From positions 1 to 64,000 of IMG/VR virus record IMGVR_UViG_3300044691_000566: a stretch of DNA of 64,000 nucleotides, one strand, 5' to 3'. A model generated the notes under the pieces. It was not told the origin of the DNA, searched no databases, and was given only the letters and a program-made list of their open reading frames with translations. Position 1 is the stretch's first letter, and each line of letters opens with the position of its first letter. The stretch comes from a virus. Made by a program: the position numbers and the translations under genes. Of the stretch, positions 24,146 through 54,991 are shown piece after piece.

Positions 24146-24697
24146 ATGGGCGACACAGGAACGACCTACCAGGGCGCGCTCATCATCGAGCCTCCGCTGA
24201 ACCCGCGTGAGGTCCGGGCCCTCGCGGCCTTCTTCGACAGCCGCCGAATACAGACGGAGGGCGGTCCGCTGGACTGCCGCACCCTGCCGGGGTTCCACCC
24301 CGACATCATCGACATGAACCGGCCCCCGAAGGGCCAGCCGGGTCTGTGGTGCGACCTGCGGGTGTCGGAGGACGGCAAGACCCTGGAGTGGGACGGCACC
24401 CGCCACACGACCCCTCCGGACCTGGACAAGTGGATCGCCTACGTGATCGACCATCTGCTGAAACCCGATGCCGAGTTCGACATTCGGGAGCGGAACTTCG
24501 ACCTGAGCCAGATGTCCGACGAGGACCTCCTGCACTACTTCACCTTCGACCACTACGTCAACGGCATCCTGGAGGCCGAGGGGGACGGGGACACCTGGAA
24601 GGTCTACGTCATCGACAACGAGGTCTCGGTGGTGCGCCCCTTCTCTCCGCTGCCCATCGCCGTGCCTGCGGAGGATGACGATGACGACGAGGGGTGA
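24146..24697 (+). CDS. DUF6205-like protein (paralogue of 26115)
   Basis: Product of 183 residues. The N-terminal Y-x-G-x-L-I-I-x-PPLN-x-REVR pattern matches the actinobacterial/phage DUF6205 style. A closely related copy lies at 26115-26615 with IDPPLNYSEIR; both end in a W-x-x-YVIDN/MVWSDN strand. The acidic tail (EDDDDDEG) overlaps the next gene. Function unknown. Confidence 0.8.
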   Translation: MGDTGTTYQGALIIEPPLNPREVRALAAFFDSRRIQTEGGPLDCRTLPGFHPDIIDMNRPPKGQPGLWCDLRVSEDGKTLEWDGTRHTTPPDLDKWIAYVIDHLLKPDAEFDIRERNFDLSQMSDEDLLHYFTFDHYVNGILEAEGDGDTWKVYVIDNEVSVVRPFSPLPIAVPAEDDDDDEG

Positions 24698-25142
24698 GCT
24701 GCCGGAGGCCGAGATCTTCGATGCCGACGGGACGCTCTGGAACGTGCAGCCCATCCGGCACCTTCTTCAGAGGTCCGGTTCCAGGAATTTCCACGCCTTC
24801 CACATGGAGTCGGTGAACTGCGAGCCCAACTGGGAGGTCCTGGAGGGCCTCAACGCCGCTCACGCGGCCGGGAAGGCCGTCCTGCTGGTCACGGCCCGGT
24901 CGACGCTCTACAGGAACGTGACGGCCTTCTGGCTGGCCATGTGGGCGGCCCCCACTGACGCGATGTTCATGCGCAGGCACGGGGACCAGCGTGCGGACGT
25001 GCTGGTGAAGAAGGACATCGCCGCGAGCATCCTGGCGCGTTGGCGGGTGACCCGGGCGTGGGACGACAACCCCAACGTGTGGGGGCTCTGGGAGTCATTG
25101 GAGATCCCGGTGAGGAAAGTGCCGGGCTGGATCGACATCTAG
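24681..25142 (+). CDS. HAD-superfamily phosphatase (polynucleotide 3'-phosphatase-like)
   Basis: Product of 153 residues. ATG 24681 is chosen for its GGAGG at 24670. HAD motif I is IFDADGTLW with nucleophile D14 and D16. Motif II is VLLVTARS, a Lys follows in KKDIA, and motif IV is RAWDDNPNVW. The arrangement is like the phosphatase domain of T4 Pnk, so 3'-phosphate removal from RNA or DNA ends is plausible. It overlaps the previous gene by 17 nt. Confidence 0.8.
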   Translation: MTTRGELPEAEIFDADGTLWNVQPIRHLLQRSGSRNFHAFHMESVNCEPNWEVLEGLNAAHAAGKAVLLVTARSTLYRNVTAFWLAMWAAPTDAMFMRRHGDQRADVLVKKDIAASILARWRVTRAWDDNPNVWGLWESLEIPVRKVPGWIDI

Positions 25143-25168
25143 CTCTCCAACAATCCTTGTGGTAACCT
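25139..25168 (+). promoter_or_regulatory. accessory-type promoter (copy 4)
   Basis: Spacer CTCCAACAATCCTTGTGG (25145-25162) followed by TAACCT. The -35 region overlaps the upstream stop and reads CTAGCT. Leader CTCCTCAGGAGG follows. Confidence 0.75.
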
Positions 25169-25207
25169 GCTGTAGCAGGAACTCACCCGACTCCTCAGGA
25201 GGCCACT

Positions 25208-25684
25208 GTGCGCATCTACCTCTTCACCATCGACGGGACGCCCGGAGCCCGCACCGAGCTTCACGGCGCGCAGGCCGCCCTGGAGGACCACTTCCGGAAG
25301 CGCCAGGACGTCTCCGACGTCTGGTGGGACGACGAGGACCCTTACAACCCTCGGCTGTATTTGTACGGCCCCACCCATGCCGACTGGGCGTCTTTGGCCG
25401 AGCCCTGGGATTCCGACATCAGCTTCGAGGAGATCGGCTCGGTCATCTTCCCCCTCGACCTGGCCGAGGTGCCCTCCGAACCGCCGCTTAGCATCCTGGA
25501 CCCGGCCGGGGCCCGGCTCTCCCTGTCGGTGACCACTAGAAAGGGCACCGAGACCGTCACCCGCGTCATTCCCGAGGTCGAGTGGCGGGAGGCGGCGCTG
25601 AGTCGCGGTTCCATACTGGGCAGATTCGCGATGGACACCGCCCTGGCCATGGGCATCCGATGGAGTACCCAGGAGGGGTCATGA
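25208..25684 (+). CDS. hypothetical protein
   Basis: Product of 158 residues starting at GTG 25208, preceded by the standard GGAGGCCACT leader. It begins MRIYLFTIDGT, is alpha/beta and acidic. No family recognised. First gene after promoter copy 4. Confidence 0.83.
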   Translation: MRIYLFTIDGTPGARTELHGAQAALEDHFRKRQDVSDVWWDDEDPYNPRLYLYGPTHADWASLAEPWDSDISFEEIGSVIFPLDLAEVPSEPPLSILDPAGARLSLSVTTRKGTETVTRVIPEVEWREAALSRGSILGRFAMDTALAMGIRWSTQEGS

Positions 25685-26043
25685 ACAGAAACTTCCGCGA
25701 AGTATTGGCGACCAAGGGCATCCTCAGCGGTGGCGACCTGGGGGAGTACCTGGAGGCCAAGGCGGTCATCTACTTCCTGATGGCGGGCGGGGACCCCCGG
25801 GCCGAGCTGCGGCACTGGGCGGACGGCCTCCACGATGTGCTCACCTTCCGGCCCGAGCACCCGCGCACGATGAGCGTGGGGGCGATGCGGCGCAAGACCG
25901 TGGAGGCGGCCCAGGAGGAGGCCCTGAAGCTCCTGGGGATCAAAGAGTGGAGCAGGTCGCCCTTCTCCAACTGCTGGTTCCCCACGGACACGCTGACGCT
26001 CGCCTACGAGGAGTTCGGCTGGGAGCCGTCGCCGAAGGGTTGA
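25681..26043 (+). CDS. hypothetical protein
   Basis: Product of 120 residues; ATG 25681 overlaps the previous stop (ATGA). It is a helical protein of unknown family. Its TGA is part of the -35 of the next promoter. Confidence 0.82.
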   Translation: MNRNFREVLATKGILSGGDLGEYLEAKAVIYFLMAGGDPRAELRHWADGLHDVLTFRPEHPRTMSVGAMRRKTVEAAQEEALKLLGIKEWSRSPFSNCWFPTDTLTLAYEEFGWEPSPKG

Positions 26044-26069
26044 CACTCCAGGAATCCTCGTAGTAGTGT
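26040..26069 (+). promoter_or_regulatory. accessory-type promoter (copy 5)
   Basis: TTGACA, spacer CTCCAGGAATCCTCGTAG, TAGTGT, then the start-site dyad TTGACCACGTCAA. Confidence 0.88.
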
Positions 26070-26114
26070 TGACCACGTCAAGACCGCAGCAGACCGACTC
26101 CTCGGGAGGCCACC

Positions 26115-26615
26115 ATGGGCACCAACTACAGCTTCGACGGCGGTGTCACGATCGACCCGCCGCTGAACTACTCGGAGATCCGCACCGCCCGCAAGACCGC
26201 GCTCGACCTGGTCCGCCAGCACGAAAAGCGGTACGCCACCGAGGAGAACGTCTTCAGCACGTACATGCCGCTGGCGCTGACGCTGGACACCTTCGACAAG
26301 ACCACCGAGGAGGGCGTTCTGACGGTCACCCGGGCCATCGCCCTGAAGGCCCCCTCGTCCGAGCACTTCCTGCCCATGGACATGGACGTGCTCGTGCGGG
26401 CCCTCATCAAGGCGCTGCCGGGCCACAACTGGACGGGCAGCGTCACCGCCGTCCACGAGGACCGCCTGACCGGCTACAAGCTGACGGTGAAGGCCGACGG
26501 CAGCGGGCAGTCGGTGGACAGTCCCGAGGTGGTCCGACACATCAAGGGGTCCTCCTACATGGTGTGGTCCGACAACGGAGAGTCCGAGTCCGTCTCGCTG
26601 GTGGACCTCATCTGA
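26115..26615 (+). CDS. DUF6205-like protein (paralogue of 24146)
   Basis: Product of 166 residues starting ATG 26115 after GGAGGCCACC. It shares the N-terminal PPLN-x-x-EIR motif and the C-terminal Ser/Trp strand with the protein at 24146, about 2 kb upstream, so the pair arose by duplication. Single-gene cassette with its own promoter. Confidence 0.82.
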   Translation: MGTNYSFDGGVTIDPPLNYSEIRTARKTALDLVRQHEKRYATEENVFSTYMPLALTLDTFDKTTEEGVLTVTRAIALKAPSSEHFLPMDMDVLVRALIKALPGHNWTGSVTAVHEDRLTGYKLTVKADGSGQSVDSPEVVRHIKGSSYMVWSDNGESESVSLVDLI

Positions 26616-26617
26616 GG

Positions 26618-26647
26618 TTGAACAACCAAGAATTCTGCGAGTAGGAT
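26618..26647 (+). promoter_or_regulatory. accessory-type promoter, divergent spacer (copy 6)
   Basis: TTGAAC, 18-bp spacer with CCAAGAATTCTGCG, TAGGAT. It is the most divergent of the clear copies. Confidence 0.7.
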
Positions 26648-26686
26648 GACGATCTCATAGTCCTACTGGCAGGCCGGAGGCCGGAG

Positions 26687-27343
26687 TTGTCAGACCTCTG
26701 GAGTCTGGGGGTCATGGAGCGCCTGGCAGCTCAGTCGCTGCTCCAGAGCGTCCCCATGACCGTCGGCAACGTCACCACCATCACCTTGCCCATGACCGCG
26801 TTCGAGTTTTCAACGATCGCGTTCGGGGCCGATCACCGGGCACCACAGCCCACCATGTCTCTCAAGGAGAACAAGCAAGTGGCGAACAACAGCAAGGCGT
26901 TCAAGCTCACCTTCCTCGACGGCTCCGAGCGCACGATCGAGGCGGAGAACGTCACCGAGACCGAGGAGGGCCGCCTGGTCTTCCTGGGGAAGGTCGACGG
27001 CGAGTCCTACAGCAGCAGCACGATCGCTTCCATCCTGGCCAGCCAGGTCATGGAGTACGGCGTCGTCCAGGCCAAGGACGAGGTGACCACGGGTGCCCAC
27101 ACCTACCGCGTCGTCCTCCACAACGGCGACTTCCTGGAGGTCGAGGCCGACAAGGTCATGTACACCCAGGGCAACGAGAAGGGCGCGGGCCAGTACACCC
27201 TCGTGACCAAGCCGCGCAGCGGCGATTACCGGACCGAGCTGGTCATCGGTGAGCCCGAGGTCCACTCGATCTCCCGCGTCACCGACGTGCCCACCGTCCC
27301 GGCGCCCACCAAGGGCAAGAAGGCCGACGCCGTCCACGCCTGA
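26687..27343 (+). CDS. hypothetical protein
   Basis: Product of 218 residues if started at TTG 26687, which has GGAGG 6 nt upstream and sits about 40 nt from the -10, as in the other cassettes. GTG 26879, with AAGGAG, would give a 154-residue protein starting at a clear beta-rich domain (FKLTFLDGSERTIEAEN). Function unknown. Confidence 0.7.
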   Translation: MSDLWSLGVMERLAAQSLLQSVPMTVGNVTTITLPMTAFEFSTIAFGADHRAPQPTMSLKENKQVANNSKAFKLTFLDGSERTIEAENVTETEEGRLVFLGKVDGESYSSSTIASILASQVMEYGVVQAKDEVTTGAHTYRVVLHNGDFLEVEADKVMYTQGNEKGAGQYTLVTKPRSGDYRTELVIGEPEVHSISRVTDVPTVPAPTKGKKADAVHA

Positions 27344-27357
27344 TCCACCGGCATCAT

Positions 27358-27387
27358 GGGGCCGGTCCCTCCACGGGGACCGGCCCC
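27358..27387 (+). terminator. intrinsic terminator-like hairpin
   Basis: Perfect 12-bp GC-rich stem with a 6-nt loop between two genes. Confidence 0.75.
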
Positions 27388-27409
27388 TGTGGCATATCTG
27401 GAGGCAGAA

Positions 27410-27631
27410 ATGGCCAAGCGCATCGAGCGTCGCACCTGTCGGGTGATCTACGCCATCCCGTCCCCGAGTCCGTTGGACGTGTTGGAGAAGGAGATCGGCT
27501 TCATCCGGAAGGAGTACCAGGAGCGGTTCGGGGAGCTGTGGGACAACGTCCCCATGATCGAGTCGCATGACGACGAGATCCACCTCTGGTACGAGGTGAA
27601 GGAGGATGCGAAGGAGGTCGCGGGGTCTTGA
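27410..27631 (+). CDS. small hypothetical protein
   Basis: Product of 73 residues, ATG 27410 after TGGAGG. Basic N-terminus, acidic helical C-terminus. It lies after a hairpin with no promoter of its own, so it may be expressed by read-through. No family recognised. Confidence 0.72.
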   Translation: MAKRIERRTCRVIYAIPSPSPLDVLEKEIGFIRKEYQERFGELWDNVPMIESHDDEIHLWYEVKEDAKEVAGS

Positions 27632-27657
27632 CTCTCCAACAATCCTTGGGGTAGTCT
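27628..27657 (+). promoter_or_regulatory. accessory-type promoter (copy 7)
   Basis: TTGACT, spacer CTCCAACAATCCTTGGGG, TAGTCT. The TTGA overlaps the upstream stop codon. Leader CTCCACTGGAGG follows. Confidence 0.9.
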
Positions 27658-27697
27658 TGTCTTTGTCAGGACGACACCGACTCCACTGGAGGCCACC

Positions 27698-28717
27698 ATG
27701 GCGAACATTCAGGACATGACCCCGGTCGAGATAGACACCGAGCTGTCGAATCTCTGGAACCAGGAAGCGGCGGCCGAGGACAAGGTCCGGCGCCTGACCG
27801 CCGAGCTGCACCAGGCGGTCGGCGACAACCCGCGCCGGGTGCGTGGTGCCCGGGGGCTGATCTTCGACCTCTCCCCGGAGGAGACCCTGAAGCTGGCCGT
27901 CATCAAGGCCCGTGCCCCGCGCACCGAGCAGGAGATGTGGGCCGCCGAGTCGATCGACAAGATCCTCACCGGGTGGGCGATGACCACGCGCCTTCTGGAG
28001 GACCTGACGGCCCGGATCAAGCCCTACGTGGACGAGTACGTTCGCCGGGGCGGCTGGAACCGCGTCTTCCTGGCCACCAGCCACGACGGCCACGCCCACA
28101 ACGGCCAGAACTGCTCCACCTGCCACCACGGCGAGTACAGCACCGGGTTCGCCTGGCTGATCCGCTACTCCGGCAAGGACGAGGACGAGATCGTCGCCGA
28201 CGCCGGGGAGCGCGCCTGCACCACCTGCTACCCGACCGCCCCGGTCAACGCCAAGGGCACCAAGATGTTCACCCCGGACGAGGAGGAGGCCGCCAAGCGC
28301 CGCCAGGAGCGCGAGGAGGTCAAGGCCAAGAAGGCGGCCGATGCCGACGCTAAGAGCATCACCACCCCTGAGGGCGGAACGCTCTCCGCGAGCAAGAACA
28401 ACGAGACCTGGTCCATCTGCAAGACCCTGCGCACCGCTGAGATCGCCGCCACCGACGCCCTGGTGGACCTGATCGACGTCCAGCGTCAGGCCCGTGACCC
28501 CGAGTTCGCGTGGCTCTTCCAGAACGGCCGCACCGTTGAGAAGCGCACGCTGGAGATTGCCCGGCACGCCTGGTGCCTGATCCGCTCGATCGCCGTCAAG
28601 AAGGGCCAGACCTTCCAGGAGGTCTTCGAGATCCACGACAAGAAGGCCCAGGCCAAGGTTCGCAAGATGGACCGCGAGTGGGCCAAGGACCCCCGGAACT
28701 CCATCCGCATCAAGTAG
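27698..28717 (+). CDS. hypothetical protein with central His/Cys zinc motif
   Basis: Product of 339 residues. Helical N-terminal part; the centre has HNGQNCSTCHHGEY and later ACTTCYP, a four-Cys/His metal site. A Lys/Glu-rich linker and a helical C-terminus follow. No function known. Single-gene cassette between promoter copy 7 and a UUCG hairpin. Confidence 0.87.
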   Translation: MANIQDMTPVEIDTELSNLWNQEAAAEDKVRRLTAELHQAVGDNPRRVRGARGLIFDLSPEETLKLAVIKARAPRTEQEMWAAESIDKILTGWAMTTRLLEDLTARIKPYVDEYVRRGGWNRVFLATSHDGHAHNGQNCSTCHHGEYSTGFAWLIRYSGKDEDEIVADAGERACTTCYPTAPVNAKGTKMFTPDEEEAAKRRQEREEVKAKKAADADAKSITTPEGGTLSASKNNETWSICKTLRTAEIAATDALVDLIDVQRQARDPEFAWLFQNGRTVEKRTLEIARHAWCLIRSIAVKKGQTFQEVFEIHDKKAQAKVRKMDREWAKDPRNSIRIK

Positions 28718-28724
28718 TCCGACC

Positions 28725-28746
28725 GGGAGGGCCTTCGGGCCCTCCC
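28725..28746 (+). terminator. hairpin with UUCG tetraloop
   Basis: 9-bp perfect stem closed by TTCG, just after the stop. Confidence 0.75.
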
Positions 28747-28777
28747 TTCCCGCCAGAGATCCCGCCAGGAGGCCGTC

Positions 28778-29065
28778 ATGATCAAGCTCGCCGACTTGCA
28801 GACCGGCTACTTCGCCCACCCGGACCAGCCGGAGGCCCCGTTCCCCTTCGTCCACGCCATGAAGCCGGTCCTCGTGGGCCGGGAGATCGAACTCCAGCCC
28901 CTGTGCGACACGGCCATCCCGGACGGACACGAGTACCAGTGGTGCTCCAAGCACATCGAGTTCACCTACGTCGACTGCCAGCCGTGCCGGAACAAGCTGG
29001 ACCTGATAGCGATGGCGGAAGGGCGCGGGCAGCTCGCGCTGTTCCGGCACCCGTCGCACGTCTGA
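28778..29065 (+). CDS. small Cys-containing hypothetical protein
   Basis: Product of 95 residues, ATG 28778 after AGGAGG in a leader with GCCAGAGA. It contains EYQWCSKHIEFTYVDCQPC, possibly a zinc site. No family recognised. Confidence 0.8.
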   Translation: MIKLADLQTGYFAHPDQPEAPFPFVHAMKPVLVGREIELQPLCDTAIPDGHEYQWCSKHIEFTYVDCQPCRNKLDLIAMAEGRGQLALFRHPSHV

Positions 29066-29069
29066 CCCA

Positions 29070-29099
29070 TTGACGCCCCAAGGATTCCTGGAGTAGTCT
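29070..29099 (+). promoter_or_regulatory. accessory-type promoter (copy 8)
   Basis: TTGACG, spacer CCCCAAGGATTCCTGGAG, TAGTCT, then TTGACTCTGTCAG. Confidence 0.9.
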
Positions 29100-29139
29100 T
29101 GACTCTGTCAGGACGACACCGACTCCTCTGGAGGCCACA

Positions 29140-29370
29140 ATGGCGATCTACATCAGCAGGAACCCGCAGACCGTCCTCCTCGCGGCGACCGTGGGAGCCC
29201 GTACCGCCGTGGGCTCCTTCGGGAGAGACCTCTTCGAGGCCGAGGGCGAGTGCCGGGACTGCGGGCACGTCGGTGACATGTACTTCTCCGAGATCGACGC
29301 CGAGACCGCTGTCGCCGAGTGCCCGAAGTGCGGCTGGGGTGTCCGGAAGTACACCGGCCCCGACGCCTGA
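29140..29370 (+). CDS. zinc-ribbon small protein
   Basis: Product of 76 residues. ECRDCGHVG and ECPKCGWGV form a four-Cys zinc ribbon. ATG 29140 follows the standard GGAGGCCACA leader. A GATTTTAAAATC palindrome follows the stop. Confidence 0.83.
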   Translation: MAIYISRNPQTVLLAATVGARTAVGSFGRDLFEAEGECRDCGHVGDMYFSEIDAETAVAECPKCGWGVRKYTGPDA

Positions 29371-29408
29371 CAGATTTTAAAATCCCTGCCTAGGCCCTGG
29401 AGGCCCCC

Positions 29409-29804
29409 GTGACCGACACTCAGTACGAGGAACTCCTCGCCACCCGCCGTGCGTTCATCAACCTGGCCGAGGCCATCCGCACATCTGCGGAGGACCCGAA
29501 GGACTTCCGCACCATCCTGCGGGCGCTGGCCAATCTGCATGTCGACGAGCCGTTGCGGCACAGCCTGGTGGAGACCTACATCTACGTCGCCGACGACGAC
29601 CGTGAGGTCGTCGCGGAGAAGCTGGCCCTCCTGCTGGACGGGCAGCAGAAGTTCGACACCGCCCGCTTCATGCACCACGCGACCTCCGACCTGGACACGG
29701 AGGAGGGCAAGGGGTCATACAACCGGCTCTTCCAGATCCAGCCGCAGAAGATCACGATCGAGGGCATCGACCCTGACGGCGGGTCCACCGAGACCGTCTA
29801 CTGA
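29409..29804 (+). CDS. hypothetical protein
   Basis: Product of 131 residues, GTG 29409 after TGGAGG. Helical, acidic. No family recognised. It is followed by a hairpin terminator. Confidence 0.8.
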   Translation: MTDTQYEELLATRRAFINLAEAIRTSAEDPKDFRTILRALANLHVDEPLRHSLVETYIYVADDDREVVAEKLALLLDGQQKFDTARFMHHATSDLDTEEGKGSYNRLFQIQPQKITIEGIDPDGGSTETVY

Positions 29805-29832
29805 TCAACTCCGGCTTCCCTGACCGCATCCC

Positions 29833-45297: not shown

Positions 45298-45327
45298 TTG
45301 ACACTCCAACAATCCTATGAGTAGTCT
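45298..45327 (+). promoter_or_regulatory. accessory-type promoter (copy 16)
   Basis: TTGACA, spacer CTCCAACAATCCTATGAG, TAGTCT, then TTGACTCTGTCAG. Confidence 0.92.
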
Positions 45328-45364: not shown

Positions 45365-45730
45365 ATGGCGGAAGAGATCAGCGACAAGGACCGCATGGAG
45401 AAGGGCTACGACGAGCTGCGGGCGCAGGCGGTAGAGAGCCCGACCGAGGCGCGGAACCCGGTCGAGGAGTACCAGGCCAACCTGGAGCGCCGGGAGACCC
45501 AGGCCATGGACCTCACGTTCCGCATGAAGGCCCTGGAGGCCGCCGCGCACTTCGCCACCAACCCCACCTGGACGGGCGCCATGCACGGCAAGGTGGACCA
45601 CCTGGACGCCCTCAACGTGATCGCCATGGCCGACGTCTTCGAGGACTACCTCCGCAACGGCCGGAAGGGGCCCAACCCCCTGGAGGCCGCAGCCCGCAAG
45701 CGTCAGCCGTCGCTGTTCCAGGAACTCTGA
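45365..45730 (+). CDS. hypothetical protein
   Basis: Product of 121 residues, ATG 45365 after TGGAGGCCCAC. Helical, ends in basic RKRQPSLFQEL. No family recognised. Confidence 0.82.
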   Translation: MAEEISDKDRMEKGYDELRAQAVESPTEARNPVEEYQANLERRETQAMDLTFRMKALEAAAHFATNPTWTGAMHGKVDHLDALNVIAMADVFEDYLRNGRKGPNPLEAAARKRQPSLFQEL

Positions 45731-45740
45731 GGAGACCGAG

Positions 45741-46193
45741 ATGAACAAGACCGCACTGACCATTGCCGCCACCCTGGCGTCCACGCTGGGCGGCATAGCT
45801 CTGGCGCCCCAGGCGCACGCCATGACCACCACGCTGGAGTCCAGGGCTTTCGGCGTGGCCCTGAGCAAACAGGGCGACCCGTACGTCTACGGGGCTGCGG
45901 GACCCAACGCCTTCGACTGCTCGGGCCTGACCTCGTACTCCTACAAGCGGGCGGGCAAGGCCATCCTGCGTACGGCGCAGGCCCAGTTCAACCACGTGCG
46001 GCACATCTTCTACAACCAGATGCGGCCGGGGGACCTGGTGTTCTTCGGGGGCGTGCGCTCGATATACCACGTGGGCCTCTACGCGGGCGGTGGCAAGATC
46101 ATCAACGCCAACACCGGCCACTACCGGGGGCGCAGGGTCGTGATCGCCCCCATCTCCGAGTACACCGGCACCCGCCACTACGGCCGGGTCTGA
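45741..46193 (+). CDS. secreted NlpC/P60-family peptidoglycan hydrolase
   Basis: Product of 150 residues with a Sec signal peptide (basic MNK, hydrophobic core, APQAHA cleavage at about residue 27). The NlpC/P60 catalytic Cys is C60 in FDCSGL and the His is H110 in HVGLYAG, with a polar third residue in the INANTG strand. It would cut peptide cross-links in the cell wall from outside the cell. It lies among accessory genes rather than a lysis cassette and has an export signal, which endolysins usually lack; superinfection exclusion or wall remodelling are alternatives. Confidence 0.88.
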   Translation: MNKTALTIAATLASTLGGIALAPQAHAMTTTLESRAFGVALSKQGDPYVYGAAGPNAFDCSGLTSYSYKRAGKAILRTAQAQFNHVRHIFYNQMRPGDLVFFGGVRSIYHVGLYAGGGKIINANTGHYRGRRVVIAPISEYTGTRHYGRV

Positions 46194-46214
46194 CAAGAAG
46201 GACGGTCCTGCCAG

Positions 46215-46508
46215 ATGAATCAGAAGAAGACGAGTGCGGCGGAGCAACTCGCCAAGCTCTTCCACGACTCCTACGAGGAGCTGGCGCCCTCCCACGGTTA
46301 CGAGACCCGCGAGGCGTCCCGCAAGCCGTGGGAGGGCGTCCCCGAGAACAACAGGTCCCTGATGGTCGCGGTGGCCCAGAAGATCCTGGACTCCCAGGAG
46401 GACTCCGAGGACCTCCGCAAGCTCCGGGCCCTGGAGACCGCCGGGGTGGACAACTGGGACGGCTACGCGTACGCCATGTCGATCATGGACGGGGATGACG
46501 AGTTCTGA
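46215..46508 (+). CDS. hypothetical protein
   Basis: Product of 97 residues, ATG 46215. Contains a W-E-x-VPE-N-N-R-x-LM-x-AVA motif, as in short domains widespread in actinophages. Function unknown. Confidence 0.8.
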   Translation: MNQKKTSAAEQLAKLFHDSYEELAPSHGYETREASRKPWEGVPENNRSLMVAVAQKILDSQEDSEDLRKLRALETAGVDNWDGYAYAMSIMDGDDEF

Positions 46509-46693
46509 TGGCGACGCCCAACATGCCCGCCGAGGAGTGGCCCGACCTGTCCGGCGACGAGCTGCGGCAGGTCGGGGAGGTCCTGAGGGGCGCCGACTAC
46601 ATGCAGGCCCACGAGGACGACGGGACGCCGGTCCCCGATCCCCCCCAAGTAGCCCACAACCCGCCAGAGATCACCCGGGAGGGTGCCGTATGA
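46508..46693 (+). CDS. small hypothetical protein
   Basis: Product of 61 residues, ATG 46508 sharing a base with the previous stop; overlaps the RNA ligase start. Acidic, Pro-rich. No family recognised. Confidence 0.74.
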   Translation: MATPNMPAEEWPDLSGDELRQVGEVLRGADYMQAHEDDGTPVPDPPQVAHNPPEITREGAV

Positions 46694-47466
46694 CGATCAT
46701 GGACAAGTTCGTGGAGCTGAACTCCGCCACCAAGTACCCGAGCATCGAGACGTACCACGTGCTGGGGGAGCGGGGCGCCCTGACCGAGGACGTGGGCCCG
46801 TTCGCCGGATACGAGGGCGATGCGCTCTTCACCGAGAAGGTGAACGGCACCAACGGCCGCATAGTCCTCTTCCCCGACGGTGATTTCCTCATCGGCTCCC
46901 GCGAGGAGCTGTGGTACGCCGACGGCGACCGGATCATCAATCCCTCGTTCCGTCTCGTGGAGACGCTCAAGCCGGTGGCCGAGGGTCTGACGGGTGACGG
47001 CACTCAGCACATCTCCGTGTTCTTCTTCGAGGTCTACGGCCACCAGATCGGCTCGGCCGCCAAGCAGTACACGGGCGAGGGCAACGTGGGCTACCGCCTG
47101 TTCGACCTGGCGTACGTGCCCCTGGAGGTCCTGGAGCTGGACCGCGCGAGGATCGCCTCATGGCGGCAGCACGGCGGTCAGCAGTGGGCCACGGAGCCGG
47201 TGCTCCAGCGGGTGGTCCAGGCGGAGGGCCTGACCCTTGCGCCGCGTCTGGGGACTGTACAGGCCGATTCCCTGCCGACCTCCGTGGCGGGCATGTCCAA
47301 GTGGCTGGAGCAGGTGTCCCAGTCCCTGGTGGGCCTGGACGCCAAGGCGAAGGGTCGTTCGGAGGGCGTGGTGCTGCGGTCCCCGCAGCGCACGGTCATC
47401 GCCAAGGCCCGCTTCGAGGACTACGAGCGCACCCTGAACCCCCAGCCGCAGCGCAAGCAGCGGTAG
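46690..47466 (+). CDS. RNA ligase (Rnl2/PF09414-type)
   Basis: Product of 258 residues, ATG 46690 overlapping the previous stop. Nucleotidyltransferase motif I is TEKVNGTNGR with lysine K50 as the AMP acceptor. GSREEL is motif III-like, SVFFFEVYG motif IIIa, EGVVLRS (about 225) motif IV and IAKAR (K239) motif V. It should seal RNA nicks, for example cleaved tRNA anticodon loops. With the RlaP-like, 2H and HAD enzymes it forms an RNA-repair set. Confidence 0.9.
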   Translation: MTIMDKFVELNSATKYPSIETYHVLGERGALTEDVGPFAGYEGDALFTEKVNGTNGRIVLFPDGDFLIGSREELWYADGDRIINPSFRLVETLKPVAEGLTGDGTQHISVFFFEVYGHQIGSAAKQYTGEGNVGYRLFDLAYVPLEVLELDRARIASWRQHGGQQWATEPVLQRVVQAEGLTLAPRLGTVQADSLPTSVAGMSKWLEQVSQSLVGLDAKAKGRSEGVVLRSPQRTVIAKARFEDYERTLNPQPQRKQR

Positions 47467-48970: not shown

Positions 48971-48974
48971 GGGG

Positions 48975-49361: not shown

Positions 49362-49399
49362 GCACCACAGCCCGCCGGAGCTGCGATCCCGGCACCCAA

Positions 49400-49480
49400 T
49401 TCCCGGTCGTCTACTTGGTGAAGACGCTCCGTCGGGCCGCACCCGGGGGAGGGACGCTGGTTCGACTCCGGCACGGGAAG
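49400..49480 (+). ncRNA. tRNA-like element with anticodon arm replaced by a 10-bp hairpin
   Basis: Acceptor TTCCCGG/ACGGGAA (6 of 7 pairs), U8, D arm GTCT-ACTTGGTGA-AGAC and T arm GCTGG-TTCGACT-CCGGC are all standard. The anticodon position instead holds a 10-bp helix (49427-49436 with 49442-49451, one G-G mismatch) capped by CCGCA, so no 7-nt anticodon loop exists. A hairpin at 49374-49393 precedes it, and GCCAGAGA and the gene at 49513 follow. Confidence 0.6.
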
Positions 49481-49512
49481 CGCCAGAGAACACCCGAGCA
49501 CAGGGAGCCCAT

Positions 49513-49830
49513 ATGCCCATGTTCAAGATCCAGCCCGCCTCGCGGATCGACAACCTCACGGCCCACGGCGATGTGGGGCTCCAGCGTCCGTACCCCGTCT
49601 ACGCCGACAACAAGGGCAACGTGGAGTTCCAGCGCTCCTTCCGGGGCCGGGTGACCCGCGTCGTGGGCTTCCAGAAGGACCTGGCCGTCCAGCAGATCGA
49701 CCTGTCGTGGAGCGAGGCCCAGAAGAACCCGGACAAGGTCGTGGGCATGTACCTGGTCACGGCCGACAGCAAGGGTGACCTCGGCGTGCACGACACCGCC
49801 GTGGAGACCTTCGAGGAGGTGGTGCTGTGA
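49513..49830 (+). CDS. hypothetical protein
   Basis: Product of 105 residues, ATG 49513 with AGGGAG upstream, downstream of the tRNA-like element. Beta-rich. No family recognised. Confidence 0.8.
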   Translation: MPMFKIQPASRIDNLTAHGDVGLQRPYPVYADNKGNVEFQRSFRGRVTRVVGFQKDLAVQQIDLSWSEAQKNPDKVVGMYLVTADSKGDLGVHDTAVETFEEVVL

Positions 49831-50342
49831 GCATCGACAGAGTCCAGGTCGGCCGGATCTTCCGGCACAAGGCGGACGGCCGCCGCTACGTGCGAATCGA
49901 CCGCCTCTTCGATTCGCTCGATCAGCCGCCGGTCCCGGGCGTCTCGTTCGCCATCTGGGATCTCCGGGAGGGGGTGAGAGCGAAGTGGGAGGAGTTCTCC
50001 GTCCTGCCGGTTGCCATGTTCAATGAGCAGTACCGGTACGCGGCGCAGTTCTTCGAGAACCAGCAGGCCGAGATGGCCGAGGCCACCGCGATGCGCGAGA
50101 AGCTCCAGGCGGACATCGAAGCCGCCCTGGAGGCCGTCGGAGCCCAGGACCCGGCCGCCGTGGCCGGGCTGTTCGTCCGCCTGGTGCAGAACGAGTGCGC
50201 CCACCGTATCTACACCCACGACGGGTTCAAGGAGGGGTGTGCCGCAGGCTGCTGCGACTCCACCACGGACGACGCGGCCGAAGTGATCGAGGTGGAGATC
50301 ACCGACGCGGAGCGCGAGGAGCTGCTCGGGGAGAGCGCTTGA
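49827..50342 (+). CDS. hypothetical protein
   Basis: Product of 171 residues, GTG 49827 overlapping the previous stop. Beta N-terminus, helical centre, C-terminal Cys run (EGCAAGCC). Its stop overlaps promoter copy 19. Confidence 0.82.
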   Translation: MSIDRVQVGRIFRHKADGRRYVRIDRLFDSLDQPPVPGVSFAIWDLREGVRAKWEEFSVLPVAMFNEQYRYAAQFFENQQAEMAEATAMREKLQADIEAALEAVGAQDPAAVAGLFVRLVQNECAHRIYTHDGFKEGCAAGCCDSTTDDAAEVIEVEITDAEREELLGESA

Positions 50343-50368
50343 CGCTCCAACAATCCTTGTAGTAGTCT
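50339..50368 (+). promoter_or_regulatory. accessory-type promoter (copy 19)
   Basis: TTGACG, spacer CTCCAACAATCCTTGTAG, TAGTCT, then TTGACTCTGTCAG. Confidence 0.92.
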
Positions 50369-50408
50369 TGACTCTGTCAGCACGACGACGACTCCTCAGG
50401 AGGCCCAC

Positions 50409-51266
50409 ATGGCCCGTACCCGCGAAGACCTCATCGCCCAGGTGCTCAAGCTCAACGAGATGGCCAACCGCTCCAGCGAGGCCGACGATGCCGACGACGA
50501 CAACGGTGTGGCCCACGCCGAGATCGTGGACAACGCGACCCGCAAGGCGGCCAAGATCATGCGGCGCCACCAGATCACCGAGGCCGAGATCGGCCAGGCG
50601 CAGGCCGCCAAGGACGAGGAGTTCGTCCACTTCACGTTCTCGGTGCGCAACACCTACGGGCTGGGCAAGGAGCGCTCCACCGCCCTCCACCACGCCGTGA
50701 TCGTCCCCTTCGGCGGCAACTCGATGCGGACCGTCTACAAGTCGGCCAAGTCCGACACGGAGATGACCGTTTTCGCCCCGGCCAGCATCGCCGAGATGCT
50801 CAAGTCGCTGCTGTACAGCATCTCCCTCCAGATGGAGGAGGGCCTGAGGTCGGCGAGCAAGGGCGAGCGCCAGCGGATCGACGAGTCGGTCTTCTCCTGG
50901 ACCCAGGCGGAGATCAACAAGCAGGTCCTGCTCTTCCGCCGGGGCTACCTGCGGGGCTTCGCCTCCACGGTGGGCTCGCGCATCAAGGCCGCCCAGGACG
51001 AGGCCATGGAGGAGATCAAGCGGGAGCTGGAGGCCGAGGGCCGCTCGGTGTCGGCGGGCACGGAGATCGCCCTGTACGACTCCAGCAGGAAGGCGGGCGA
51101 CTTCATGAACGCCTGGTACACCGGTACCAGCGGCGGCGGGAAGCTCCGCAAGACGTCCAACCGCGCCCGGTCGTCGAGCAAGGGCATCGAGGCCGGGGCG
51201 CGGGACGGCCGCCGGGCCGACATCACCCCGCCCAGGACCGACCCGAACCGCCGCTCGTTGGTCTGA
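50409..51266 (+). CDS. DUF2786-family protein
   Basis: Product of 285 residues. The N-terminus, with a helical AxxLxE and AAKIMRRHQITEAEIG, matches the DUF2786 module found in phage and bacterial proteins. Helical middle; the Ser/Arg-rich C-terminus is basic and likely disordered. Function unknown. ATG 50409 after GGAGGCCCAC. Confidence 0.76.
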   Translation: MARTREDLIAQVLKLNEMANRSSEADDADDDNGVAHAEIVDNATRKAAKIMRRHQITEAEIGQAQAAKDEEFVHFTFSVRNTYGLGKERSTALHHAVIVPFGGNSMRTVYKSAKSDTEMTVFAPASIAEMLKSLLYSISLQMEEGLRSASKGERQRIDESVFSWTQAEINKQVLLFRRGYLRGFASTVGSRIKAAQDEAMEEIKRELEAEGRSVSAGTEIALYDSSRKAGDFMNAWYTGTSGGGKLRKTSNRARSSSKGIEAGARDGRRADITPPRTDPNRRSLV

Positions 51267-51305
51267 TGGAGGACGGCCCGCCGGGAGCCGTAATCCCGGC
51301 ACCAT

Positions 51306-51384
51306 GCCCCTGTAGCTCAATAGGCAGAGCGACCGACGCCCTCGGGCAGTCGGGACGATGCGGGTTCGAGTCCCGTCGAGGGCA
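51306..51384 (+). ncRNA. tRNA-like element lacking a normal anticodon loop
   Basis: Acceptor GCCCCTG/CGAGGGC (one mismatch), D arm GCTC-AATAGGCA-GAGC and T arm GCGGG-TTCGAGT-CCCGT are normal. The anticodon arm is CCGAC-GCC-CTCG-GGC-A-GTCGG, about 8 bp with one bulge and a 4-nt loop (11 nt if only the outer 5 bp form). A near-identical upstream hairpin (51280-51300) and a downstream GCCAGAGA match the element at 49400. Confidence 0.6.
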
Positions 51385-51413
51385 CGCCAGAGAATCAACC
51401 CGAGGAGGACCGT

Positions 51414-51767
51414 ATGGGACGGATCAAGCCGAGCAGGTCCAGGCGCATTCGCCCGCAGGACGTCGAGACGGTGGAGGATCTGTACGCGGGGCTCAACCAG
51501 GTCGCGGAACAGGCCCTGGACAAGCTCTCCGGGCGCCTGCTGGCCGCCGGGGCGTCCCCGGAGGACGTGGCGGCCCACTACGACGCCGTGAGGGCGCAGG
51601 CGGCCATGTACGTGCTCCAGATGGACCTGATGTCGTTCATCGACACGCGGCCCGACGCCGGGATCCAGCAGATCATCTTCGACGAGCTGATGAAGGACAT
51701 CAATCCGGTGGAGGCGCTGGCCATCGGTCTGCCGGACGCCGAGGACAACCCGACGGAAGAGGTCTGA
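51414..51767 (+). CDS. hypothetical protein
   Basis: Product of 117 residues, ATG 51414 after GAGGAGG, downstream of the tRNA-like element. Basic N-terminus, helical. No family recognised. Confidence 0.82.
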   Translation: MGRIKPSRSRRIRPQDVETVEDLYAGLNQVAEQALDKLSGRLLAAGASPEDVAAHYDAVRAQAAMYVLQMDLMSFIDTRPDAGIQQIIFDELMKDINPVEALAIGLPDAEDNPTEEV

Positions 51768-51768
51768 C

Positions 51769-52212
51769 ATGGGTGCATGGGGTACCGCCGTCTTCGACAA
51801 CGACAACGCCGCCGACTTTGCGGGGTCCCTGGAGTACTGCTCCACGACCGAAGCCCGCACCGACCTGCTGACCGCAACGCTGCGGGCGCTCATCGAGCTG
51901 GAGGACACGGAGCGCTGGCTCATGGCCGGGGACTTCGAGTTCCCCTACGAGATCGAGCACGCGCTGGCCGCTGCGGCCTTTGTGGCCGACCGCAAGAACG
52001 GCCGGGAGGAGTTCATCAACGTCTCCTACGCGCAGGGCCACGACAGGGAGACGGACACCTGGTACACCATCCCCCTGGACGAGCCCACCCCGACCCTGAT
52101 CAACGACGCCCTGACCGCCGTGGAGAAGATCCTGCGGCAGATGGAGGCCGACAAGGTCGAGGACGAGTGGCAGGCGAGCGCCCGTAAGATCTTCGCGGCT
52201 CTCCTCGCATAA
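51769..52212 (+). CDS. DUF4259-family protein
   Basis: Product of 147 residues. MGAWGTAVFDNDNAADF is the DUF4259 signature, and ALAAAAFVADRKN fits the family's helical core. Function unknown; relatives are common in Streptomyces, so this may be a host-derived gene. Confidence 0.85.
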   Translation: MGAWGTAVFDNDNAADFAGSLEYCSTTEARTDLLTATLRALIELEDTERWLMAGDFEFPYEIEHALAAAAFVADRKNGREEFINVSYAQGHDRETDTWYTIPLDEPTPTLINDALTAVEKILRQMEADKVEDEWQASARKIFAALLA

Positions 52213-52216
52213 CCCC

Positions 52217-52246
52217 TTGACACTCCAACAATCCTTGGGGTAGTGT
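52217..52246 (+). promoter_or_regulatory. accessory-type promoter for the tRNA cluster (copy 20)
   Basis: TTGACA, spacer CTCCAACAATCCTTGGGG, TAGTGT, then TTGACCTTGTCAA. It faces the tRNA cluster. The stretch 52248-52373 holds only small hairpins and no gene. Confidence 0.9.
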
Positions 52247-52373
52247 TGACCTTGTCAAGACGACGCGGTAGCGTCACTCAGCTCGTCCGAGAGACATCCG
52301 TGAACGAGCGGGGCGGAGGACGGGAGTGGGGGGACTGATCATCCCCCGATCCCTCTTCGCGGCCCTAGTACGG

Positions 52374-52447
52374 TCCTCCATAGCTCAGTTGGCCAGAGCA
52401 GTGCACTGTTAATGCACGGGTCGCAGGTTCGAGTCCTGCTGGAGGAG
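52374..52447 (+). tRNA. tRNA-Asn (GUU)
   Basis: Full cloverleaf: acceptor TCCTCCA/TGGAGGA, D arm GCTC...GAGC, anticodon arm GTGCA-CTGTTAA-TGCAC with GTT, T arm GCAGG-TTCGAGT-CCTGC. No encoded CCA. Confidence 0.93.
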
Positions 52448-52539
52448 CGGGGTACTGCGCAGTAACCGGCTGCTGGCCGGAAGTACCTTAGCCGGGTCTG
52501 TCCGTCATCCCGGGTGCACGAAAGACGGATGCACGATGG

Positions 52540-52608
52540 TCCTCCGTAGCTCAGTGGCCAGAGCGGGCCCGAAGGGGATGCGCGCGGGTTCAACTCCCGC
52601 CGGAGGAT
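52540..52608 (+). ncRNA. tRNA-like relative of tRNA-Asn with shrunken anticodon arm
   Basis: Acceptor TCCTCCG/CGGAGGA, D arm and T arm are intact and nearly identical to the tRNA-Asn at 52374, so it is a duplicate. The anticodon region is only 19 nt (23 is normal) and can form just CCC-GAA-GGG. It cannot read codons normally. Confidence 0.6.
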
Positions 52609-52674
52609 CTTGCACGGCCCTGGGTAGGGGCTACCGAACCGGTTTGACCCACCGTACGTGCGAAACGGGTCGCT

Positions 52675-52749
52675 GCCCCTGTAGCTCAGTTTGGCAAGAG
52701 CGCTCGTCTGAAACACGAGAGGTCGCTGGTTCGATTCCAGCCGGGGGCA
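52675..52749 (+). tRNA. tRNA-Phe (GAA)
   Basis: Acceptor GCCCCTG/CGGGGGC, anticodon arm CTCGT-CTGAAAC-ACGAG with GAA, T arm GCTGG-TTCGATT-CCAGC. Complete cloverleaf. Confidence 0.92.
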
Positions 52750-52880
52750 CGCTAGGGACCCACCAGCTTGGTTATCGGATGGGCGCAGATAGAGAGTTGC
52801 CGTCAGATGAAGGTCGGCATCCACTCGCTGCCCGATGTGGGAGCAGAACGGCTAATCACCGTGGACAAGACCAAGCACAT

Positions 52881-52953
52881 GCCCCCGTAGCCCAACGGCT
52901 GAGGCCCCGGCTTCAAACACCGGAAGATGTGGGTTCGAATCCCACCGGGGGTA
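52881..52953 (+). tRNA. tRNA with ambiguous anticodon (CAA, or UCA in a 9-nt loop)
   Basis: Acceptor GCCCCCG/CGGGGGT and T arm GTGGG-TTCGAAT-CCCAC are good. By standard numbering the loop is TTCAAAC (anticodon CAA, Leu) closed by a C-A mismatch. If only the 4 bp CCGG/CCGG pair, the 9-nt loop CTTCAAACA would show UCA, which reads UGA. It lacks the long variable arm of bacterial tRNA-Leu. Confidence 0.7.
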
Positions 52954-52960
52954 CGCAAGT

Positions 52961-53112
52961 TCGAGGACTGAGTGGTGAGCGTAGGCCGGTTCAACTCCGG
53001 CCGTCCCGAGGGCTCGGGTGTGGGGTTCGATTCCCCTTGACCATGGTGGCGAACAGGGATCGCGGCGTCAGTGCCGTGCCCGCGCAGAGGGGTTCGACTC
53101 CCTTCCGGTCCA
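52961..53112 (+). ncRNA. tract of degenerate tRNA-like elements
   Basis: Three more T-arm-like hairpins with TTCRAYT loops lie at 52984-53002, 53021-53037 and 53088-53104. The first has a possible acceptor (52961-52968 with 53003-53009) and almost nothing between it and the T arm. The last has a D arm GCGA-ACAGGGA-TCGC (53049-53063) but only CGGC-GTCAGT-GCCG for an anticodon arm. No gene is seen in 52213-53268 otherwise. Confidence 0.45.
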
Positions 53113-53268
53113 CGGCGGTGCCAGTGGAGACGACAGCCGACTCCACACGGGTACGGAGAGGCCAACTGGGGTGATCCGCGTGGCGGCGCTCCCCCAGCAA
53201 GATCTCCGTGCGGACGAGGCCATACGTCCCCCGCACCTTTTTAAAATCTCGACTCCCCAGGAGGCGCC

Positions 53269-53484
53269 ATGGTTGTACCGACCCCCGAACGCGGCGAGTA
53301 CACGGAGCTGGCCGAACGGCTCATCGAGGAGATCGAGATGGCGACCGTCGCCGAGGTGGTGCTGCTCCGCAAGCGCATCGACGGAGCCCTGGCCTACCTG
53401 GACGAGGTGGTCACGCCCAACCAGATCACGCTGCGGCACATTCGTCGGCACCTGGACGGCGGCTACGACGGGATGCCGGGCTGA
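53269..53484 (+). CDS. small helical protein
   Basis: Product of 71 residues, ATG 53269 after CTCCCCAGGAGG and downstream of CTTTTTAAAATC at 53237. It is probably expressed with the tRNA cluster. Helical, acidic. No family recognised. Confidence 0.8.
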   Translation: MVVPTPERGEYTELAERLIEEIEMATVAEVVLLRKRIDGALAYLDEVVTPNQITLRHIRRHLDGGYDGMPG

Positions 53485-53576
53485 TACCCCGCCACAACCC
53501 CACCGCCTTCTGGATTCTGCTGGCGGTGGGGCTCGACATCATGCTGGCCCTGCTGATCTGGGAGATCGTGCGATGA
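53481..53576 (+). CDS. 31-residue single-pass membrane peptide with apparent CTG start
   Basis: The frame encodes a Pro/Arg N-terminus followed by one membrane helix (AFWILLAVGLDIMLALLIW). No ATG, GTG or TTG lies in frame near the beginning. CTG 53481 overlaps the upstream stop as CTGA, the same junction type as at 34736. The next gene overlaps its stop by ATGA. Function unknown. Confidence 0.55.
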   Translation: MIPRHNPTAFWILLAVGLDIMLALLIWEIVR

Positions 53577-53707
53577 CCACTGAATTACCTGAGCCCACCG
53601 ACCCCGATGAGGGCATTTCGACCACCTGGGACCACCACCCGGTCACCGGGTGGGAGCAGGTCGGCACCTTCGACCCCGACGAGGAGACCGATGGTGGGAC
53701 GCCGTAG
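53573..53707 (+). CDS. 44-residue acidic peptide
   Basis: ATG 53573 overlaps the previous stop. Acidic and Pro/Thr-rich with two Trp. It overlaps the next gene by 17 nt. Function unknown. Confidence 0.65.
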   Translation: MTTELPEPTDPDEGISTTWDHHPVTGWEQVGTFDPDEETDGGTP

Positions 53708-53864
53708 GCGCATATATCTGCGGGTGCTGCGGGTGATCCGCAAGCCCTTCTGGTACCCGCGCTGCCTCCACCTGTCCCACCGGCTGCTTCTGCCGTGCTG
53801 GCGTGCGCAGATCTGGGATTCCTACTGCCCCCACCACAACGACACCTGCTGGGGGAGATGCTGA
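53691..53864 (+). CDS. Cys/His-rich basic protein, copy A of a tandem pair
   Basis: Product of 57 residues, ATG 53691. The unit CLHLSHRLLLPCWR...CPHHNDTCWGRC is repeated in the next protein (CWHLSHRLKLPCWR...CGRHYDSCREGC). Probably zinc-binding. Function unknown. Confidence 0.74.
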   Translation: MVGRRRRIYLRVLRVIRKPFWYPRCLHLSHRLLLPCWRAQIWDSYCPHHNDTCWGRC

Positions 53865-54256
53865 TGAAGACCGCCGTCGTCAAGGACCACTGGTTCCGCG
53901 CCGAATACGCGGATGACCCGTGCGGGTACAGCGGCTGCGGACGGCCCCAGGCCGAACACGTGGAGTCGGTAGGGGAGTGGATGGAGGCGCGGCACCTGTT
54001 CCTGCCGTCCCTGCCCTCCATCCGGTGCGTGCGCTGCGCGCGGTACTGGTCGCACTCCACCCACCACGGCAGCCGGAAGAACCGTCGGCTGTACTGGCGC
54101 GACTGGTTCTTCCTGTTGCGGCAGCGGCTGCTGCACCGTAACGACTTGTGCTGGCACCTGTCGCACCGGCTCAAACTGCCGTGCTGGCGCCGCGTGGACT
54201 CCACGTGCTCCATGCTCTGCGGACGCCACTACGACTCCTGCCGGGAGGGATGCTGA
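53864..54256 (+). CDS. Cys/His-rich protein, copy B with extra N-terminal domain
   Basis: Product of 130 residues, ATG 53864 (GGGGGAG 6 nt upstream). The N-terminal part has CGYSGCGRPQAEHV and CVRCARYW, another zinc-type module. The C-terminal 45 residues duplicate the protein at 53691. Coupled by one-base overlaps on both sides. Confidence 0.78.
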   Translation: MKTAVVKDHWFRAEYADDPCGYSGCGRPQAEHVESVGEWMEARHLFLPSLPSIRCVRCARYWSHSTHHGSRKNRRLYWRDWFFLLRQRLLHRNDLCWHLSHRLKLPCWRRVDSTCSMLCGRHYDSCREGC

Positions 54257-54573
54257 TGATCGTGATCACCACCAGCAAGTTGGTCCGGGACAAGATCCAT
54301 GACCTGTATCCGGAGTACGGCTACCACACAGCGGCTCCGGAGCAGCGTCTGGATCTGCTGCAAGCCAAGCTCTTCGAGGAGAGCGCCGAGGTGTCGGTCG
54401 CCCGTGACGGCTTCGAGGCGCTCCAGGAGCTGGCCGACCTGGAGGAGATCGTCCGGGCCTACACCAGGGCCCTGGGGTACTCCCTGGAGGATCTGGAGGC
54501 CCAGCGGCTGCGGAAGTTCAGGGAGCGCGGCGGCTTCGAGGAGGGCTGGGTGCTGACCCGGCAGATGCCCTGA
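54256..54573 (+). CDS. MazG-like nucleoside triphosphate pyrophosphohydrolase
   Basis: Product of 105 residues, ATG 54256. KLVRDKIHDL at the N-terminus, KLFEESAEV with the EExxE-type metal site, ELADLEEIV as the second acidic helix, and a closing KFRERGGFEEG are the pattern of short all-alpha MazG/phosphoribosyl-ATP pyrophosphatase-like phage proteins. It may lower (p)ppGpp or clean up nucleotides. Confidence 0.84.
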   Translation: MIVITTSKLVRDKIHDLYPEYGYHTAAPEQRLDLLQAKLFEESAEVSVARDGFEALQELADLEEIVRAYTRALGYSLEDLEAQRLRKFRERGGFEEGWVLTRQMP

Positions 54574-54586
54574 GAGGAGGGGACTG

Positions 54587-54991
54587 ATGATCAAGCGGGG
54601 GGATCTGCCCAACCATCCGGTGTCGGCGCTGGACTACCTGTTCCAGCGCGGCTGGATACCCCGTCCGGTGTGTGTGGGGCAGCCCCTGAGATCCACCGGT
54701 CAGGAATACGCTCTGGTGCTCGAAGTGGAAGGCTACGGTTTCGAGGCCGTCGCCGGGGCGACCAAGAACGAGGCCAAGCGCGAAGCCGCAGAGGCGCTCC
54801 TGGGGCGCGTGCTGGCCATGATGTGCCCGCACCCCACCAAGATGCGTTACGCGACCGACGAGGTGGCGTACGGGACGGCGGAGCGCCATCAGAACATCGG
54901 GAAGACCGGGATTCGGCGTGCGTACCTGTGCCGGTGCGGCTGGTGGCATATGACCAGCCAGCCGGACAACAACGTGAGGAGCGTGTCGTGA
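54587..54991 (+). CDS. double-stranded RNA-binding-domain protein with zinc module
   Basis: Product of 134 residues. Residues about 12-75 fit a dsRBD: an N-terminal helix, QEYALVLEVEGYGFEAV strands and KNEAKREAAEALL as the basic closing helix. The C-terminal part has CPHPTKMRY and YLCRCGWWHMTS, a zinc-ribbon-like module common in actinophages. It could shield or sense structured RNA. GAGGAG precedes ATG 54587. Confidence 0.72.
   Translation: MIKRGDLPNHPVSALDYLFQRGWIPRPVCVGQPLRSTGQEYALVLEVEGYGFEAVAGATKNEAKREAAEALLGRVLAMMCPHPTKMRYATDEVAYGTAERHQNIGKTGIRRAYLCRCGWWHMTSQPDNNVRSVS

Follow-up and report, generated by a model that had tools for sequence, protein, structure and literature searches.

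A dispersed set of putative RNA-repair genes and a conserved tRNA-like RNA in a large phage genome

We analysed the first 64,000 bases (the window) of IMG/VR virus record IMGVR_UViG_3300044691_000566, a linear sequence of 159,746 bases with a GC content of 66%, in which genes for a HAD phosphatase, an RlaP-family nucleotidyltransferase and an RNA ligase occur together with transfer RNA (tRNA) genes, tRNA-like genes and a conserved tRNA-like RNA (Table 1). The rest of the record, which may be incomplete, encodes DNA polymerase III alpha, a UvsX-like recombinase, and tail sheath and baseplate proteins; the phage has replication machinery of its own. The host of this large phage is probably a Streptomyces-like bacterium, and the closest named relatives of the accessory genes are found in the large Streptomyces phages JustBecause, Kela, Satis, and Kradal. 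A sister genome of 154 kb (IMGVR_UViG_3300044816_000098, hereafter G004) has many core genes in common with this phage, at roughly 45-77% protein identity.

Table 1 Positions of the features discussed, counted from the first base of the window
Feature	Position	Strand	Evidence
Giant polyvalent protein, 1606 aa (amino acids), GTG start	14457-19277	+	GNAT stretches, ParB-C PHROG/polyvalent segment, Pol-beta-like motif, C-terminal 2H
2H phosphoesterase domain, C-terminus of giant protein	18882-19232	+	PF13563 (E 8e-11), motifs HVTL and HLTL intact
HAD phosphatase, PNKP type, without kinase domain, 153 aa	24681-25142	+	PF25109, PHROG polynucleotide kinase, PDB relatives
RlaP-family Pol-beta nucleotidyltransferase, 232 aa	33537-34235	+	PF10127
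ATP-dependent RNA ligase, 258 aa, nucleotidyltransferase domain alone	46690-47466	+	PF09414, alignment, AlphaFold (AF2) model, Foldseek
Promoter-like 30-mer copies	26040, 27628, 30489, 38484, 41243, 42464, 45298, 48975, 50339, 52217, 62258	+	
Promoter-like copy ahead of gene run 45365-47466, which ends with the ligase	45298-45327	+	
Promoter-like copy at head of tRNA array, exact match	52217-52246	+	
tRNA-like, extended hairpin in place of anticodon loop	51306-51385	+	No usable anticodon
tRNA-Asn(GUU)	52374-52448	+	
tRNA-like, resembles tRNA-Asn, truncated anticodon arm	52540-52609	+	Rfam tRNA 42 bits, missed by ARAGORN; no usable anticodon
tRNA-Phe(GAA)	52675-52750	+	
tRNA-Leu(CAA), without long variable arm	52881-52954	+	
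Conserved tRNA-like RNA, about 155 nucleotides	52962-53115	+	8-sequence alignment, pair counts, covariance-model search (146 bits)
Probable double-stranded RNA-binding domain (dsRBD) with Zn-ribbon-like tail	54587-54991	+	dsrm sub-threshold, PDB dsRBD matches

A sequence-only reading of the window had proposed a dispersed RNA-repair toolkit consisting of the HAD phosphatase, RlaP, the RNA ligase, the 2H end of a giant protein, and a dsRBD protein, and the first three of these assignments were borne out by profile searches. The HAD protein matched PF25109 (HAD_PNKP) with an E-value of 2e-16 and 60.8 bits, above the curated cut-off of 27.6; its catalytic motifs DADGT, T, K, and DD are all present, and its relatives in PDB include Pnkp1 (4xrp) and T4 Pnk (1ltq). 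RlaP matched PF10127 (E 4e-22, 79.7 bits, cut-off 23) and retains the GS...DxD motif, while the ligase matched PF09414 (E 7e-10, 39.7 bits, cut-off 27), with the motifs EKVNGTN, EVYG, EGVVLRS, and AKAR intact in a 26-sequence alignment. A PDB search with the ligase sequence profile returned chance matches only. The AF2 model of the ligase has a pLDDT (predicted local distance difference test) of 92, and in a Foldseek search with this model ranks 1-28 were all RNA ligases, T4 Rnl2 first among them (2hvr, E 2e-8), with DNA ligases ranking lower.

The ligase corresponds to the catalytic domain of the Rnl2 fold, and the aligned proteins end soon after motif V, without a C-terminal domain. It has the fold of T4 Rnl2, Naegleria Rnl, and REL1 and the same order of motifs (EKxxGxN, ExxG, EGxVLR, KxR), but unlike them it consists of the catalytic domain alone and is only 17% identical in sequence. 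The isolated catalytic domain of T4 Rnl2 seals pre-adenylated ends but cannot carry out the whole reaction, and by analogy the single-domain ligase may need a partner. At 43% identity, the ligase is related to that of JustBecause (AYD81305.1), which section 3.4.9 of a survey of RNA repair in jumbo phages names as a divergent actinophage ligase outside Rnl1 and Rnl2 (Iyer et al. 2021, PMC7824862).

A fourth repair enzyme, Thg1 (E 1e-28), a 3'-to-5' polymerase for tRNA 5' ends, is encoded at positions 68238-69194 of the record, 4 kb past the end of the window and thus out of sight of the sequence-only reading. For the 5'-OH polynucleotide kinase family PF13671, no match was detected in the whole record at E-values up to 10. 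The kinase was likewise not found in JustBecause or Kela, whose genomes are complete, and its absence is therefore recurrent and not clearly an assembly gap. One relative (G018) carries a kinase-HAD fusion in a single frame of 356 aa.

All four enzymes are retained in the sister genome (HAD 49%, RlaP 57%, ligase 55%, and Thg1 52% identical) despite rearrangement, and because they are kept as a set their co-occurrence exceeds what would be expected by chance. A profile scan with the ligase recovered 26 metagenomic viral loci, and we counted companion genes over 29 whole ligase-bearing phage records: Ro60 was present in ten of them, RlaP in six, HAD in five, Thg1 in four, and a kinase above the cut-off in two, all of these counts being minima, as many records are fragments. 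Ro60 directly adjoins the ligase in JustBecause, Kela, and several viral contigs (immediately beside it at loci L028 and L030, nearby at L014 and L019), Thg1 lies less than 10 kb from the ligase at L027, L029, and L030, and tRNA arrays surround the ligase in other records; at L023 it is located inside an array of 37 tRNAs within one 20-kb stretch. JustBecause and Kela each hold the ligase, RlaP, HAD, and Ro60. Ro60 was detected in 236 of 50,697 named phage records, and among the Streptomyces phages in INPHARED the 13 records with RlaP are the same 13 that encode Ro60, an overlap that covers about three genome sizes but is inflated by relatedness. As far as our searches show, the breadth of the single-domain ligase family and the recurrent absence of the kinase appear to be new.

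G004 also encodes Ro60 (83845-85527, minus strand), which we did not find in the present genome either by profile or by tblastn with the G004 protein. In G004 the gene is flanked by homologues of two genes that in this phage (record 71278-71709) are separated by only 431 bases. Since these flanking genes are nearly adjacent here, Ro60 was either gained in G004 or lost in this phage.

The genuine tRNAs of this phage are those for Asn, Phe, Leu, and Met. The sequence-only reading had also pointed to tRNA mimics beside them, and this was confirmed: two tRNA-like genes lack a usable anticodon, and the strongest mimic proved to be a family of conserved, structured RNA. When our phage collection was compared with positions 31000-55500 of the window, the sole match at the DNA level was the stretch just after tRNA-Leu, which corresponds to this RNA. 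It ends about 45 nucleotides upstream of the ligase start in G004, and it is also present in Quantum, Kradal, EhyElimayoE, Satis, and further metagenomic contigs; in Kradal and Satis, the two annotations read, it is placed just past the tRNA arrays. In an alignment of eight sequences the RNA is closed by an acceptor-like stem and has a T-arm and internal hairpins, several of which bear T-loops. In the resulting 37-pair structure 97.8% of cells pair, compared to 91.2% in shuffles, and two-sided changes occur in 21 cells against 5.5 expected, a value reached in none of 500 shuffles; sliding the pairing partners destroys both signals. These counts use the very alignment from which the structure was derived, so copies outside the model provide a stronger test, and two such copies fit the structure. 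The copy at L065 scores 149.6 bits and shows compensatory changes that extend even to the T stem; the other scores 87 bits and comes from Streptomyces sp. MP131-18. The latter, the sole bacterial copy found (L055:92-232), adjoins a serine recombinase and is perhaps in an integrated element.

No Rfam 15 family matched the RNA at its gathering score, and within its interval we recovered neither a tRNA at the Rfam gathering score nor a transfer-messenger RNA (Rfam, ARAGORN). Two other identities were considered and rejected. The YrlA Y RNA (RF02553) scored 24.5 bits against a gathering score of 69, in a match that straddles tRNA-Leu, and four other loci with the RNA gave no YrlA match; a coding region is inconsistent with stops in most frames and with indels that do not come in threes. 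The RNA is new as far as our searches show, the literature check having covered the open library.

All four named phages with the tRNA-like RNA encode Ro60, RlaP, and HAD. Among the metagenomic records that carry it, G004 and G027 hold Ro60 and RlaP and G029 holds Ro60 without RlaP, while Ro60 is missing from this genome, from G028 (a 30 kb fragment), and from G030. We did not find the RNA in JustBecause, Kela, or Frankenweenie, all of which have Ro60, and it is therefore not a universal partner of Ro60. The RNA resembles the Y RNAs of Ro60-YrlA particles in being tRNA-like, and the large records that carry it mostly encode Ro60, but it is not YrlA by covariance model, Ro60 is absent here, and elsewhere Ro60 and the RNA do not adjoin each other. 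We therefore treat a Ro-associated, Y-RNA-like role as a lead and not as a result.

A second conserved stretch directly follows the tRNA-like RNA (53116-53213; GAGGCCAACT...TGATCCGCGTGGCGGC) and possibly represents another RNA family. Further copies occur in 13 metagenomic viral contigs, of which 11 carry tRNAs on the stretch that was fetched, and in Kradal, Satis, and JustBecause; in the last of these the copy comes immediately after tRNA-Arg.

A 30-base promoter-like consensus, TTGACNCTCCAACAATCCTTGNNGTAGTNT, occurs in 11 copies in the window where none would be expected. Because it precedes both the gene run that ends with the ligase and the tRNA array, its distribution suggests that these two units may be co-expressed despite their dispersal. 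After the 30-mer there is often a TTGAC-TGTCA palindrome together with a GACTCC..GGAGG ribosome site, the arrangement of a dispersed regulon.

Taken together, the families, the ligase fold, the motifs, and a context of Ro60, Thg1, and tRNA arrays argue for an RNA-repair reading of RlaP, the ligase, and the PNKP-type HAD. We consider it probable that these genes form a dispersed but genuine phage RNA-repair set, which would restore tRNAs, and perhaps RNAs of other kinds, after cleavage by host ribonucleases during infection. The HAD phosphatase would strip the 3'-phosphate, and possibly also a 2',3'-cyclic phosphate, from the upstream fragment; RlaP would re-add lost 3' nucleotides; the Rnl2-fold ligase would then join the 3'-OH to a 5'-phosphate; Thg1 would rebuild 5' ends; and the phage tRNAs would replace those left unmended. 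Phage tRNAs have already been proposed as an answer to anticodon nucleases (PMC10264068).

The sequence-only reading had linked the toolkit to RNA repair that reverses tRNA cleavage by host anticodon nucleases and, with the mimics, to a layered anti-RNase defence. The set of RlaP, ligase, and PNKP-type HAD is supported, but since no 5'-OH kinase was found, ends of the PrrC/RloC type could not be sealed by recognisable phage enzymes alone and would need help from the host. The missing kinase suggests either that the substrates have ready 5'-phosphates, as after cuts of the PIN/VapC type, or that a host kinase is used.

Several observations weigh against a functional repair set. The set lacks both the 5' kinase and the C-terminal domain that T4 Rnl2 has. 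The four genes are far apart (24.7, 33.5, 46.7, and 68.2 kb), in separate gene runs. In named phage records relatives of HAD (1443) and RlaP (437) are far commoner than those of the ligase (only 6) and often occur without it, and the companion rates were obtained among metagenomic contigs without a matched control, the DNA polymerase scan meant for that purpose having given no loci. The dispersed positions and the unequal abundances would also be expected if these were independent accessory genes, with HAD and RlaP serving in other nucleic-acid metabolism and the ligase acquired separately, as would the small fractions of ligase records, many of them fragments, in which RlaP or HAD was detected. 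We nevertheless regard such independence as unlikely, given that the rearranged G004 still has all four enzymes, that JustBecause and Kela share the ligase, RlaP, HAD, and Ro60, and that in Streptomyces phages RlaP and Ro60 occur in the same records.

Another explanation is that the enzymes mature or edit RNAs of the phage itself, namely the tRNA array and the tRNA-like RNA, instead of undoing host attack. The proximity of the tRNA-like RNA to the ligase in G004 and the motif found at the head of the tRNA array as well as of the gene run with the ligase are in line with this, but many phages with the ligase do not have the tRNA-like RNA and many with tRNA arrays do not have the ligase, present in so few named records, and own-RNA maturation therefore appears improbable. 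Least probable of all is that the set mends DNA ends, with HAD as a DNA 3'-phosphatase and RlaP as a gap filler: PNKP-type phosphatases also act on DNA and the phage has its own replication machinery, but the ligase fold is closest to RNA ligases and the surrounding Ro60, Thg1, and tRNAs are all RNA-directed.

An RNA-repair set of this composition is of a published kind. Section 3.4.9 of the jumbo-phage survey describes RlaP, ligases, HAD phosphatases, 2H proteins, Thg1, and TROVE proteins and arrives at the same conclusion of repair (PMC7824862). This phage shares with the systems in that section RlaP, the ATP-dependent ligase, the HAD phosphatase, Thg1, and tRNAs, with TROVE/Ro60 sometimes present there; it differs from them in lacking Ro60 and a kinase, the latter a usual though not obligatory companion in such systems, in carrying its 2H domain within a polyvalent protein, and in having the conserved tRNA-like RNA. 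As in the repair of tRNA-Lys by T4 Pnkp and Rnl1 against PrrC, a phosphatase of the Pnkp-HAD family accompanies an ATP-dependent RNA ligase, but T4 Pnkp has a 5' kinase domain whereas the HAD protein here stands alone, the ligase is Rnl2-like, and RlaP and Thg1 are additional. By sequence the closest PDB relative of the HAD protein is Pnkp1 of the bacterial Pnkp1-Rnl-Hen1 complex (PMC4411300), although here the enzymes are unfused, no kinase was found, and no Hen1 was seen in family scans.

The remaining two proposed members of the toolkit are not included in the set. The 2H domain is real, LigT-like by its PDB matches and with both motifs intact, but it lies outside the interval of the proposed toolkit and its membership is unsupported. 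The protein that it terminates is built like a polyvalent protein (Iyer et al. 2017, PMC5512222): a single chain encoded near packaging genes unites several domains of the effector type, with GNAT, ParB-type, Pol-beta-like, and 2H segments. Its gene directly follows g014, terminase-like by a weak PHROG match, and the C-terminal third of the protein is 61% identical in G004. In the survey of polyvalent proteins this kind of 2H domain was never seen linked to RNA ligases and other roles were proposed (PMC5512222). Given this position and the lack of such a link, we did not accept the 2H domain as a member of the kit, and the giant protein is probably outside it. Relatives of the 2H domain in Arthrobacter phages belong to genes labelled RNA ligase, aldolase, or capsid maturation protease, mostly at about 14-15 kb of the genome.

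The dsRBD protein follows the right pattern, with an a-b-b-b-a order in an AF2 model of low confidence (pLDDT 38), but it matches Pfam dsrm (PF00035) only below threshold (E 0.031, 15.3 bits, cut-off 23). Most of its 12 best PDB matches are dsRBDs, none significant singly. We found no phage or viral homologue, and the protein is neither conserved in G004 nor demonstrably linked to repair; it is at most a candidate and is not counted as a member of the repair kit.

The Thoeris anti-defence domain PF11195 was detected among the window genes and placed by sequence on a probable Tad2-like protein (55724-56008, plus strand), 53% identical in G004. One protein encoded between 30 and 63.5 kb matches PF25708 (T7 gp5.9 RecBCD inhibitor; E 7e-11), and one encoded in the 110-160 kb part of the record, outside the window, matches the rifampin ADP-ribosyltransferase family PF12120 (E 6e-7).

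The tRNA-like RNA also allows a bolder conjecture, which we offer as tentative and rather doubtful: it may found a phage RNA family of tRNA mimics that scaffold a repair particle, made up with Ro60 where present and in this phage with RlaP and the single-domain ligase, and so offer broken tRNA ends to enzymes unable to seal them unaided, or that serve as decoys for tRNA-cutting defences, in which case the RNA would have outlived Ro60 in this phage. Given its compensatory changes and its co-occurrence with Ro60, RlaP, and the ligase, the purpose of phage tRNA-like genes becomes testable in the culturable Streptomyces phages Satis, Kradal, Quantum, and EhyElimayoE. As tRNA cleavage is a common last-line bacterial defence, a repair set without a kinase in actinophages predicts that the host nucleases whose damage can be reversed are those that leave a 5'-phosphate.

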